This document shows, piece after piece, positions 43,831-47,836 of a DNA stretch of 64,000 nt. The translations under genes and the position numbers were made by a program. The notes below the pieces were generated by a model that was not told where the DNA came from, ran no database searches, and saw only the letters and a program-made list of their open reading frames with translations. How positions within the stretch are numbered: the first letter of the stretch is position 1; each line of letters starts with the position of its first letter. This DNA comes from Pseudoduganella violaceinigra DSM 15887 (lineage in GTDB: Bacteria; Pseudomonadota; Gammaproteobacteria; Burkholderiales; Burkholderiaceae_D): NCBI RefSeq assembly GCF_000425385.1, contig NZ_AUDI01000004.1, forward strand, positions 124,001 through 188,000, read 5' to 3'.

Positions 43831-43856
43831 GCGTCAGAGCAGGCCAACAGCTGAGC

Positions 43857-43895
43857 CTGTGGCAACCTTGGGGTCAGGCCCGTAGCTTGCCACGG
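43857..43895. repeat. REP-like palindromic element, copy 2
   Basis: GTGGCAA (43859-43865) and TTGCCAC (43887-43893) enclose a 21-base loop that shares 18 of 21 bases with the element at 25462-25500 in reverse orientation. Outer CTGAG/CTCAG arms (43851-43855, 43897-43901) extend the palindrome. It lies 27 nt after the yceI stop. Confidence 0.75.
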
Positions 43896-43986
43896 ACTCA
43901 GCTGTAGTAGTTGCGGGCCGGCCATTGACTTCTGGGCGCCATGGTCAATACTTCCTTGACCGCCCATCCCGCCAGAAGGTGTTCCC

Positions 43987-44239: not shown

Positions 44240-44395
44240 GGTGATTTTGTAAGTCGTTGATTTTCAATGCACTTTTCTCTGCACATTGAAGAGGCAGTTT
44301 GTTGGAAATGGCGTCGTTGAGGGCTGTTTGCCATGTCAAGCCCCCCTTATCAACAAAGATATCCACAAACAATGTGGATAATCGGAAAAGCCCTT
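44240..44395. repeat. DnaA-box-bearing block A
   Basis: This noncoding stretch holds TAAGTCGTTGATTTT (44250-44264), TGTCAAGCCCC (44334-44344) and three DnaA-box-like 9-mers: TTATCAACA (44347-44355), ATATCCACA (44359-44367) and a perfect inverted TGTGGATAA (44373-44381). The same elements occur in the same order and spacing in block B. The rest of 44191-44475 holds only a 7-bp hairpin (44456-44473) after the response-regulator stop. Confidence 0.65.
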
Positions 44396-44475
44396 TCCAA
44401 TCCGCCACTTACGGTGTTTTGGCCGGAATTCGAAGACTTTAGTGGTGAAATAACTACTGTATATGGATACAGTGC

Positions 44476-45174
44476 TTATTTGACGATGTGTCCGGACGCC
44501 TTGAAACTGCCCGGTTCCGCCCCCGGATGGACCTGGATATCCACAGTTGAGGCCGGCTGACCGATGACCAGCTGGCCGGACCAGTCCTCACCGCGCTGCA
44601 AACCCTGCAGAATGGACGCAAATTGTTGGCGGTGCTGGTTGTACTTGGCCAGCTGGGATTGCAGGACAATCAGGTCGGAGTAATTGCGCAGCGAAGAAAT
44701 CACGGTCGTAAACAGCTTGCGCGTGGTGAGGTCGGTCTTGCACCAGAAATCGTTGATGTCGTAGTCGAGGATGATGCTGTGTTCGAGCGCCTGGCCGGGC
44801 TGGCCGGTACGCAGGACGATGCGCACCAGTTCGTTCTTCAGCTCGGTGCGGATCTGGTTGGCGACGCGCAAGCCGGCATCGCTGGTTTCCATGATCACAT
44901 CGAGCAACACCAAGGCCACATCGGGGTTGTTGCGCAGGGTGGTCAGCGCCTCTTCGCCCGAATAGGCGTGCAGGAAACTGAGGCGGCGCCCCATGAAGCA
45001 TGCGTTGCTGAGCGAAAATTTGGTCACCACATGGACGTCGACATCATCATCGACGATCAGCACCCGCCAAGGGGCGGGATTAGCGCCTGGGGCTTGCTCG
45101 GACGCGCTGGCCTGCGCCTCGTCGTCGATCATCCAAGCTTCGCTTGCGTCGTCCTCAGGAACTTTCACGTCCAT
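44476..45174 (-). CDS. Orphan response regulator (receiver plus short DUF3369-like tail)
   Basis: The 232-residue product has an acidic N-terminal leader, a receiver domain with VLIVDDDVDVH and LVLLDVIMETSDAG (phospho-Asp), and LRTGQPGQALE followed by DYDINDFWCKTDLTTRKLFT. This combination is typical of receivers fused to DUF3369 and an HD-GYP phosphodiesterase, but here the protein ends soon after. No kinase is adjacent. AAGGA before ATG 45174 sets the start. It is framed by related noncoding blocks A and B. Confidence 0.82.
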   Translation of the reverse strand: MDVKVPEDDASEAWMIDDEAQASASEQAPGANPAPWRVLIVDDDVDVHVVTKFSLSNACFMGRRLSFLHAYSGEEALTTLRNNPDVALVLLDVIMETSDAGLRVANQIRTELKNELVRIVLRTGQPGQALEHSIILDYDINDFWCKTDLTTRKLFTTVISSLRNYSDLIVLQSQLAKYNQHRQQFASILQGLQRGEDWSGQLVIGQPASTVDIQVHPGAEPGSFKASGHIVK

Positions 45175-45271
45175 GCATTTTCCTTTGTCGGTTGTGGACA
45201 CGTTATTCTGCGGCGGAACATTTGTCAAAATAATTTCCAGACGCTTAGTGAGTTGCATAATGGCATACGCA

Positions 45272-45420
45272 CTGATTCGCTAAGTCGTTGATTTTATTCA
45301 TACAATTTACCTGCCAAAGAAATGGGCAATTTATTGTAAGCCGCGCCGTTAAAGGCAAAACCGCCTGTCAAGCCCCGCTTTTCCACACGCTTATCCACAG
45401 TGGAAGTGGATAACTCAAAT
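45272..45420. repeat. DnaA-box-bearing block B
   Basis: This stretch upstream of the orphan response regulator repeats block A: TAAGTCGTTGATTTT (45281-45295), TGTCAAGCCCC (45366-45376) and DnaA-box-like 9-mers TTTTCCACA (45379-45387), a perfect TTATCCACA (45391-45399) and inverted AGTGGATAA (45405-45413). The spacing between the first two motifs is 85 nt here and 84 nt in block A. Confidence 0.65.
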
Positions 45421-45464
45421 TTCGTCTTTAAAAACTTCGCATTAGAGCAATTTTATCATCCGGT

Positions 45465-46085
45465 TTAGGAGGCTGCCGCCTTCAGACGGTTGAGCTCGTC
45501 CAGGAAGCGCTCGCAGGCTAGCCCCGGCGGCCAGGGCTCCCAGGCCGGCGCCCCGTACAATGCCTGCAATGGATCTTCATTCAGCGGCACTGCCGTAATC
45601 TTCAATGTGCGCCGCACTTCGTCGCCGCTCCAGCCCACCACATGCACGGCTTCACTGGCCGCCGCCAGGCGGTCGGCGCGCTTGTGAACCTGGTATTCCT
45701 TCGGGGTCCAGGCCGGCAGGCCGTAGCGCAGGAAGACCGCCTGCTCGAGCCGCTGGCTCAATTCGCGGAAACTGTCGCCGAGGAAGGGCTTGAGCACGGA
45801 AATGCAGTCGAAGCCCAGCAACCCTTCTTCCGCATCATGCAGCAGCTCGCGCAAGGCGGTGAGGGGATCGAGCGGGGCGGGCGACCACAGGCGGCGCAAT
45901 TGCAGCACGGTGATCGAATGCTGGGCCACCGACAGCGGCAGGGGCCAGGCCGAATGGCCGCCCCAGCGATAGGTCCGGGCCAGGCCGAGCGCAAGGTCGT
46001 CATCGTCCCAATCGAAGGGCGTGGGGTCCAGCAGGTCCAGCCGGCGGCCGGAGGGCATGCGCACCCAGGCGCGTTGTGTCGTCAT
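45465..46085 (-). CDS. HD-domain phosphohydrolase (YfbR-like)
   Basis: The 206-residue product has HD-domain ligands in SVAQHSITVLQL and LLHDAEEGLLG and a later Asp in KRADRLAAASE. The small single-domain layout resembles 5'-nucleotidase YfbR or similar dNMP hydrolases. It overlaps the hybrid kinase gene by ATGA and is probably co-translated, which suggests a signalling link that is otherwise unsupported. Confidence 0.8.
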   Translation of the reverse strand: MTTQRAWVRMPSGRRLDLLDPTPFDWDDDDLALGLARTYRWGGHSAWPLPLSVAQHSITVLQLRRLWSPAPLDPLTALRELLHDAEEGLLGFDCISVLKPFLGDSFRELSQRLEQAVFLRYGLPAWTPKEYQVHKRADRLAAASEAVHVVGWSGDEVRRTLKITAVPLNEDPLQALYGAPAWEPWPPGLACERFLDELNRLKAAAS

Positions 46086-47836
46086 GCAGCTATCGTATCG
46101 TCGCGGCGCAGGTCAGCGCAAGCTTGCACGATGAGTGTCTCCAGTTCCGGCAACAGGGCGCTGGCGCTGGCCAGGTCGCCGCTGGCGCTGGCTTTTTCCA
46201 GCTGATGGCACAGGGTGTGCAATTCGGGGGCGCTCAGGTAGCCGCAGCTGCCTTTCAGGGCGTGGAAAGCGCTGCTGGCGCCTTCGCCATCGCCATTCAG
46301 CAGGGCCAGGCGGCCTTCGTCCAGCCGGCGCGGCGCTTCGTCCAGGAAGGCTTGCGCAATGCGCTTCTGGTGGCGCGCCGAGATGCCGCTGATGGGCAGG
46401 ATATGGATGGCCGGCGATGCCGGTTCGACCCCGAACATATCGTCCAGCTCGGCCAGGGTCGGCGCGGTGCGCGGCAGCTCGCGCCCGCGGCTGATCAGCT
46501 GGGCGATGGTCTTTTCCAGCTGATCGTACAGCAGCCGCTCGTCGACCGGCTTGCTGAGGAAACCATCCATCCCGGCCGAGAGGTAGCGGGCGCGGTCTCG
46601 ATCGCTGGCGTTGGCGGTCAGGGCGATGATGGGCACCAGCGGGTCGCGCACCGGCAGGTCGAGGCTGCCGCCCCGGCGGATCAGGCGTGCCGCCTGCTCG
46701 CCATCCATTTGCGGCATGCGGCCGTCCATCAGGACCAGGTCGAAGTCGCGTTCGTGCAGCGCGCGCAGGGCTTCCAGGCCGTTCGCGGCCACCGATACCT
46801 CGTGTCCCATGCCTTCCAACAAGGTGCCGATGATGAGCTGGTTGGTGCGCACATCTTCCGCGCACAGCACGCGCAGGCGATGGGTATGGCGCAGGTGGGT
46901 GGGGATGTTCTGCGGCGGCTCCTCCGGCGGCGCGCCCAGGGCCAGCGGCAGCGAGAAGCGCAGCGTGCTGCCCTTGCCCAGGCGGGTGTCGGCTTCGATA
47001 TGGCCGCCCATCAGGTCAACCAATTCCTTGCAGATCGCCAGTCCAAGACCGGGCCCGTCGGCGCGGCGCGTCGAGGACAGGTCGGCCGGTTCGAATTTAC
47101 GGAACAGGCGCGGCAGCATTTCAAGCGGAATGCCGGGGCCGGTATCGGTGATGCTGAAACTGACGCGCGCCAGGCCGTCCGCCGTTTCGCCCGAGGCGCG
47201 CAGGCGCACTTCGCCGCGCTCGGTGAACTTGATGGCATTGCCCAGCAGGTTGAGCAGGATCTGGCGCAGGCGGTTGGGATCGCCCTGCACATGGCGCGGC
47301 AGACCCGGCGCCAGTTCGCAGCGCAGCAGCAGGGCCTTGGCATCGGCCTGTGGACGCAGGATGGTGATGGCTTCGTCGATGATGTCGATCAGGTCCAGGT
47401 CCTGGGTATTGATCGACAGACGGCCCGCGTCGATACGGGAGAAATCGAGCAGGTCGTTCAGGATGGCGAGCAGGGCTTCGCTGTTTTTCAGGCCGATGCG
47501 CAGGTATTCGCCGGTCCGGTCGGCAATGGTGCGGTCGCGCAAGGCGAATTTGAGCATGCCGATCACGCCCGCCAGCGGGGTGCGGATATCGTGGCTCATG
47601 GCGGCCAGGAAATCGATGCGGTGGCGGCCCAGTTTCTCATTTTGAATCTGGGTTTGCTTCAAGGCGTTTTCACGCGCCTCCAATTGCTTTTTTAAGCGGC
47701 GGTTCTCCAATATCAGCAGGATAAGCGCTGCCAACCCCGCAATTATTAATAGGGGCGTGGCAAATTGAATCAACGATGCAAACGAAGAAAGCAAAATATT
47801 AATGATCTCCCCAATAGTTCTGATTGTAATGGACAA
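46082..47836 (-). CDS. Hybrid histidine kinase with receiver and HPt domains
   Basis: The 584-residue product has one N-terminal membrane segment (about 20-43), a coiled-coil linker, a HisKA domain with His82 (MSHDIRTPLAG), an ATPase domain (N-box LLGNAIKFTERGEV, DTGPGIP, GLGLAICKELV), a receiver with phospho-Asp in LVLMDGRMPQMDG, and a C-terminal HPt domain with phospho-His in FHALKGSCGYL. It is a complete phosphorelay up to HPt. No sensory domain is visible outside the membrane segment. Confidence 0.92.
   Translation of the reverse strand: MSITIRTIGEIINILLSSFASLIQFATPLLIIAGLAALILLILENRRLKKQLEARENALKQTQIQNEKLGRHRIDFLAAMSHDIRTPLAGVIGMLKFALRDRTIADRTGEYLRIGLKNSEALLAILNDLLDFSRIDAGRLSINTQDLDLIDIIDEAITILRPQADAKALLLRCELAPGLPRHVQGDPNRLRQILLNLLGNAIKFTERGEVRLRASGETADGLARVSFSITDTGPGIPLEMLPRLFRKFEPADLSSTRRADGPGLGLAICKELVDLMGGHIEADTRLGKGSTLRFSLPLALGAPPEEPPQNIPTHLRHTHRLRVLCAEDVRTNQLIIGTLLEGMGHEVSVAANGLEALRALHERDFDLVLMDGRMPQMDGEQAARLIRRGGSLDLPVRDPLVPIIALTANASDRDRARYLSAGMDGFLSKPVDERLLYDQLEKTIAQLISRGRELPRTAPTLAELDDMFGVEPASPAIHILPISGISARHQKRIAQAFLDEAPRRLDEGRLALLNGDGEGASSAFHALKGSCGYLSAPELHTLCHQLEKASASGDLASASALLPELETLIVQACADLRRDDTIAA

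Follow-up and report, generated by a model that had tools for sequence, protein, structure and literature searches.

Two candidate DARS2-type DnaA-reactivating sequences flanking a response regulator gene in Pseudoduganella violaceinigra

Why would a bacterium keep two copies of a noncoding block with DnaA-box-like sequences, one on either side of a single response regulator gene? The layout was noticed in a 64-kb window (the whole stretch of DNA that was analysed, 64,000 nucleotides) from Pseudoduganella violaceinigra DSM 15887, and a first-pass annotation made from the letters alone had offered three readings: a DnaA titration site, replication-coupled control of the regulator, or remnants of an origin-like or mobile module. 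Judging from the arrangement of their predicted sites, we consider it probable that a DARS2-type DnaA-reactivating sequence is present here twice, as blocks A and B.

Two blocks with the same arrangement of sites

Each block combines three predicted DnaA boxes with an exact match to the IHF-site consensus and with a Fis-like dyad, the consensus sequences (TAAnnnnTTGATW for IHF, GnnYAnnnnnTRnnC for Fis) being those given in the legend to Fig. 1 of PMC8682772. Block A (44250..44381, minus strand) has its IHF site TAAGTCGTTGATT at 44250..44262 (plus strand), within the 15-mer TAAGTCGTTGATTTT (44250-44264); there follow the dyad GCACATTGAAGAGGC with one mismatch to the Fis consensus (44281..44295, no strand), TGTCAAGCCCC (44334..44344, no strand), box III TTATCAACA (44347..44355, plus strand) and box II ATATCCACA (44359..44367, plus strand), both from a 9-mer scan, and box I TTATCCACA (44373..44381, minus strand), which is perfect and opposed to the other two. 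Block B (45281..45413, minus strand) repeats this geometry, with IHF site TAAGTCGTTGATT (45281..45293, plus strand) inside TAAGTCGTTGATTTT (45281-45295), dyad GCCAAAGAAATGGGC (45313..45327, no strand, again one mismatch to the Fis consensus), TGTCAAGCCCC (45366..45376, no strand), box III TTTTCCACA from the 9-mer scan (45379..45387, plus strand), the perfect box II TTATCCACA (45391..45399, plus strand) and box I TTATCCACT (45405..45413, minus strand), opposed to II and III. In the minus-strand reading, box I is oriented against boxes II and III, and the box starts are spaced 14 and then 12 bp apart; the IHF site lies 97 bp (A) or 98 bp (B) before box III, which places it at 105/106 bp from the start of box II in blocks A/B. 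The features first described at this locus all stand: TAAGTCGTTGATTTT and TGTCAAGCCCC are shared at nearly equal spacing (84 nt start to start in A, 85 in B), each block has three DnaA-box-like 9-mers of which one is perfect, and the blocks lie in direct orientation about 1 kb apart (1,031 bp start to start) around one gene. They can be aligned with each other (75% over 48 nt). The IHF site, the Fis-like dyad and the likeness to DARS went unnoticed in the first-pass annotation.

Two further stretches of the blocks deserve mention. The TGTCAAG within TGTCAAGCCCC, a few bases from box III, is kept at the regulator locus and does not appear in the consensus of 142 elements collected from many loci. 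Beyond box I (44382-44440 and 45414-45455) there is a partly conserved stretch, AAAA..cgCTT...aATCCg..ACTTAg in the relatives of block A, and this may be a further binding site.

The two-block observation is confirmed as real and beyond chance. Matches to AAGTCGTTGATTT with at most two mismatches number five in the window, two of them the blocks, against 0.72 expected, and TTATCCACA with at most one mismatch occurs 14 times against 4.6 expected; none of 100 shuffles reached either count. TGTCAAGCCCC taken alone (at most one mismatch) is in no excess in the window, its count being equalled by 42 of 100 shuffles. Three-box cores with 14-then-12 spacing occur twice in the window, as blocks A and B only, while 440 other spacings gave a mean of 0.014 cores each and 20 Markov-simulated windows gave no core at 14/12. 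The search for further copies was fruitful, and the concern that similar sequences might recur at random frequency across the genome was not borne out: a pattern made of all the parts matches three places in the genome (A, B and a copy near priA), its reversed version none. A plain-DNA similarity search of the same genome with block A returned block A itself alone, so similarity by itself misses this family of elements. No structured RNA was matched by Rfam at gathering scores between 43800 and 46200. A 27-nt inverted repeat (81% complementary) at 43847-43905 directly follows a YceI-family gene, in a terminator-like position.

Likeness to E. coli DARS2 and spread of the pattern

A scan for the (14,12) core, allowing at most four mismatches in total and two per box, was run on the E. 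coli K-12 DARS1, DARS2 and datA loci, on the window and on the dnaA locus of the genome itself. Among the E. coli loci it found one core in DARS1, one in DARS2 and none in datA; there was also none in the genome's own dnaA locus. In both DARS1 and DARS2 the boxes read I (plus), II (minus) and III (minus), with starts 14 and 12 bp apart, and an excerpt of PMC5742627 likewise gives the box spacing as common to the two, with box I opposite II and III. Blocks A and B each carry predicted boxes I to III and, by the terms of that excerpt, the same opposed box I and the same 14/12 spacing. Core spacing and orientation are identical to those of DARS1 (bioD-uvrB), which differs from the blocks in that no IHF consensus match (at most one mismatch) was found in the DARS1 stretch scanned.

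The closer likeness is to DARS2 (rppH-mutH), with which the blocks share not only the three boxes, the opposed box I and the 14/12 spacing but also a predicted IHF site on the box III side, oriented like IBS2, and, more tentatively, a Fis-like site. There are differences. The IHF site lies 105/106 bp from the start of box II in the blocks and 95 bp in E. coli K-12; the blocks measure about 132 bp, compared with the 455 bp stated for E. coli in the portion of PMC8682772 used here; and the blocks come as two copies 1 kb apart in another gene context. The Fis arrangement also differs, since the functional sites FBS2-3 of E. coli DARS2 lie, in the partial account that we rely on, beyond the IHF sites, whereas the Fis-like dyad of the blocks lies between core and IHF site. 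The dyad recurs: at offset 31-33 from the IHF start, 71 of 142 elements (partly related and so not independent) match the Fis consensus of the above legend with at most one mismatch and 34 match it perfectly, compared with means of 6.1 (maximum 21) and 0.4 (maximum 3) in other three-offset windows. In the other half of the 142 the conserved offset carries no Fis-like match. As for the proteins, the genome encodes IHF-alpha, above the family cut-off, and a small Fis homologue that is 40% identical to E. coli Fis.

Could the geometry have been imposed by the search? When the core alone was sought in 200 genomes of the order, with the two gaps allowed to vary (13 x 11 values) and an IHF site not required, 16 genomes (own included) gave matches, and the reversed-pattern control gave none in the same 200. 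Exact DARS gaps were found in 14 of the 17 distinct cores. In eight of these 14 the best IHF-like match (0-2 mismatches) falls 97/98 bp from box III, the eight including block B itself and one case where a second position does equally well; in the other six it falls elsewhere, two of the six overlapping as a palindrome. The combined pattern matched 29 of 40 same-genus genomes and, in looser forms, 16 genomes out of 300 in the order and 35 out of 274 in the class (own included each time), with nothing from the reversed controls; the figure of 16 in 300 means that the element is not universal in the order or that the pattern is too strict.

A scan of named species matched at least 119 stretches. 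MutH is encoded at 15, and MutH together with RppH at 13, of the matches listed, the latter including loci of Vibrio, Photobacterium, Enterovibrio, Pseudoalteromonas, Edwardsiella, Buttiauxella and an E. coli strain. By clustering of neighbour genes (named by NCBIfam on one representative per cluster), the recurring setting has MutH on the IHF side and RppH with PtsP on the core side. DARS2 of E. coli lies in just this setting; the pattern, built from the window with no information on DARS2, recovers it nonetheless. Also recurrent as neighbours are PriA with HemE, XseA with a TolQ-like protein, RNase PH, DNA polymerase I and PyrD, and the neighbour gene (priA, mutH, xseA, rph, polA or pyrD) may stand on either side of the element. 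In gammaproteobacteria, again with names from one NCBIfam representative, elements lie by rph (L106, L123, L127, L132, L157, L171, L180), by polA (L082, L143, L165) and by pyrD (L112, L114, L146, L152). Several of the neighbours found across lineages are DNA-metabolism genes.

Among the matches listed, the total length is 125-127 bp in 89 of 126 elements (120 distinct cores), and 124-128 bp in 93 of the 109 whose IHF site has at most one mismatch. By an equal measure E. coli DARS2 comes to 115 (in an E. coli strain; K-12 by arithmetic), being shorter because IBS2 is about one helical turn nearer. Helical phasing of the minority distances was considered and rejected: for the 13 minority lengths, p was about 0.85, 0.24, 0.02 and 0.002 at periods of 10, 10.5, 11 and 11.5 bp, which gives no support at the usual repeat and the low value only at the unusual 11.5 bp. 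DARS1- and DARS2-like sequences are described as conserved in many proteobacteria (PMC10380432, in part), and given that DARS-like sequences of other proteobacteria are in print (passages of PMC10380432 and PMC5742627), the element would be a variant and not a new kind. Among the titles listed, a limited literature search found none on DARS in Oxalobacteraceae, on a twin layout around a regulator or on a DnaA-box array at xseA.

The regulator locus and related copies on the chromosome

Of the 40 same-genus genomes drawn, 18 (the own genome among them) were searched for the regulator protein; 11 of the 18 matched the strict pattern somewhere and seven did not. Both blocks flank the regulator gene in 18 of 18, in unchanged orientation; the idea that block A is confined to a subset of genomes was rejected, both blocks being present throughout in the relaxed scan. 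Core spacing was fixed in that scan and the IHF distance was free over 60-130 bp. In all 36 same-locus elements the IHF site nevertheless lies 97/98 bp before box III, 35 having no mismatch and one having a single mismatch; one extra, unrelated weak match turned up in one genome. At this locus, the boxes and IHF site hold 1.6-2.0 bits per column, values inflated because the scan selected for these very sites, and the spacers hold 1.1-1.3 bits, so other factors may bind there; the flank beyond the IHF site falls to 0.8 (A) and 0.4 (B) bits, and that beyond box I to about 1.0-1.1 bits. The block pair is also present at no fewer than five loci of the named-species scan (Janthinobacterium, two Pseudoduganella, Duganella and a Burkholderiaceae metagenome bin); the closest named locus among the matches listed is that of Duganella sp. 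Root1480D1 (85.9% identity over 1.57 kb), which points to a Duganella-like member of Oxalobacteraceae as the source of the window.

The gene between the blocks (44476..45258, minus strand) encodes a response regulator with a receiver domain (PF00072, E 7.7e-06, 26.5 bits, under the curated cut-off of 30.2 bits). Its start may be at codon 29 (about 45174); alignments begin at residues 24-35 in 12 of the 18 best matches. It had been called an orphan, which is doubtful: a single gene separates it from a hybrid histidine kinase gene (46082-47836) of the same strand. This kinase, with receiver and Hpt domains, belongs to the same-strand stretch upstream (45465-47836), and it is a possible partner of the regulator. 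For the protein encoded between the two genes, Pfam and NCBIfam gave nothing at E 0.001; it looks HD-like by eye. A TTGACA read on the reverse strand of TGTCAAGCCCC was tried as a promoter and set aside, no fitting -10 being visible by eye and the promoter scan being negative.

Related copies lie elsewhere in the genome. One is upstream of priA (contig C2, position 532871), where one element was seen. At priA loci of the same genus, elements are twinned in 22 of 26, 360-450 bp apart and in direct orientation (L031, 1066-1633; L032, 1494-2048; 20 further loci), and all 26 priA-type loci adjoin PriA and HemE. Of each such pair, the main copy has its IHF site at 106; the second copy has it at 105 in 21 loci and at 104 in one.

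Upstream of xseA (contig C1, about 130.8-131.5 kb) the genome carries a six-unit array of DARS-like cores (L242, G000:C1, about 660-1430; other arrays are L243-L271). In each unit a 14/12 core with a weak box III is combined with an IHF site whose start lies 37/38 bp past box II. Arrays of four to eight units were present in 29 of the 30 same-genus genomes read (of 40 searched), and a single unit in the remaining one. Over 183 units, the IHF match (at most one mismatch) is at 38 bp in 149 and at 37 bp in 15, with nine matches in total at the remaining offsets between 20 and 124. In 19 of the 30 genomes the unit adjacent to xseA has an extra reverse IHF site at 105 bp, which is the geometry of blocks A and B. 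Twelve xseA loci of other genera, all found via the DARS2-type pattern, show three array units plus a DARS2-type unit in two (one Undibacterium and one member of the window's family), one array unit plus a DARS2-type unit in one, two cores in one and a single DARS2-type unit in eight. An early guess that the xseA region (L005/L006) is oriC proved wrong.

Positions were taken from five single-contig relatives, the genome itself being in 41 contigs, with dnaA standing in for oriC; for the xseA array, as distinct from the gene, three of the five were read. The priA element lies 96-215 kb from dnaA in all five. The regulator lies 2.31, 2.13, 2.15, 2.14 and 3.27 Mb from dnaA on one side and xseA, in the same order of genomes, 2.25, 2.02, 2.15, 1.80 and 1.44 Mb away on the opposite side. 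In E. coli, datA is near oriC, with DARS1 and DARS2 on opposite arms (PMC4585315, in part); the layout seen here resembles this, a resemblance that is suggestive only, coming as it does from five related genomes of which one is clearly asymmetric.

Competing explanations and proposed function

What else could such blocks do? The simplest of the earlier proposals, that the boxes merely soak up DnaA while IHF and Fis only shape the DNA, has in its favour the six DnaA-box-like 9-mers of the two blocks and the further clusters beside priA and xseA; since no special geometry is required for titration, the boxes of the blocks would titrate too. For a site whose box number would suffice, the architecture is more specific than needed: the 14/12 spacing was favoured with the gaps left free and is common to the E. 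coli DARS, and the IHF distance was constant in 36 of 36 elements under a scan that left it free. We thus regard titration as the main role as unlikely. A datA-like site, which would promote hydrolysis of DnaA-bound ATP together with IHF, is made of the same ingredients, DnaA boxes and an IHF site, and the related priA copy, at 0.10-0.22 Mb from dnaA in the five single-contig genomes, is ori-proximal as datA is. The datA locus, however, is without a (14,12) core and, in the PMC5742627 excerpt, has its IHF site between the DnaA boxes, an arrangement that the blocks lack, their IHF site being outside the core; a datA-like function appears quite improbable.

Regulation of the neighbouring gene fares no better. 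Block B is directly upstream of the regulator start, with TTGACA on the gene's strand, and could form a promoter controlled by DnaA, IHF and Fis, block A being a downstream copy. Yet block A lies on the gene's 3' side, the promoter scan returned one site, on the opposite strand to the gene, against 0.7 expected by chance, and like elements stand beside the six quite different genes named above, on either side of them. Replication-coupled control of the regulator keeps weak support at best, and we hold the promoter reading to be very improbable. A chance cluster, or a remnant of a mobile or origin-like module, would fit the fact that A and B are alignable duplicates, but the simulated windows and alternative spacings speak against chance, and conservation already contradicts a remnant: blocks found at an unchanged place in every same-genus genome searched lend no support to a mobile module. 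An origin-like remnant finds no support either. The genome's own oriC/dnaA locus does have DnaA boxes near an IHF-like site (one mismatch), but it lacks the (14,12) core and dnaA is on another contig (C22); the blocks have neither the dnaA-locus position nor the box arrangement of oriC. Chance or remnant is the least credible account, with hardly any probability left to it.

The broader link that had been drawn to DnaA and replication control gains support from the box geometry and the match to DARS, which point to the DARS2-type reading. From these features we infer that DnaA, IHF and Fis bind the blocks and that the ADP-release reaction takes place there. The three boxes would be occupied by ADP-DnaA, with a head-to-head pair of DnaA molecules on the opposed boxes I and II. 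A bend made by IHF about 100 bp away, with help from Fis at the intervening dyad, would favour a DnaA assembly that releases ADP; the freed DnaA could then take up ATP and become able to start replication. The dosage of the reactivating activity would be determined by the two copies together with those beside priA and xseA.

A wider proposal can be put forward tentatively, at somewhat less than even chances: the Oxalobacteraceae may possess a chromosome-wide, multi-copy system for DnaA reactivation, made of the twins at the regulator, the oriC-near and often twinned elements at priA, and the xseA array (four to eight units, IHF at 37/38 bp), with regulator and xseA on opposite arms. If this is true, DnaA would be controlled at xseA by an architecture that is new, a reactivation site amplified into an array, and the regulator might link the reactivation system to a signal.

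To our knowledge, little is known about how DnaA is regenerated outside the E. coli group. An element of about 132 bp with fixed geometry, set beside genes that differ between lineages and duplicated or arrayed in one family, offers a test bed: it separates what is essential (the core and the IHF distance) from what is free, and the effects of DARS dosage and position would be testable by deletions. For Pseudoduganella violaceinigra itself, the arrangement suggests a bacterium that may time the copying of its DNA with duplicated versions of a known switch.
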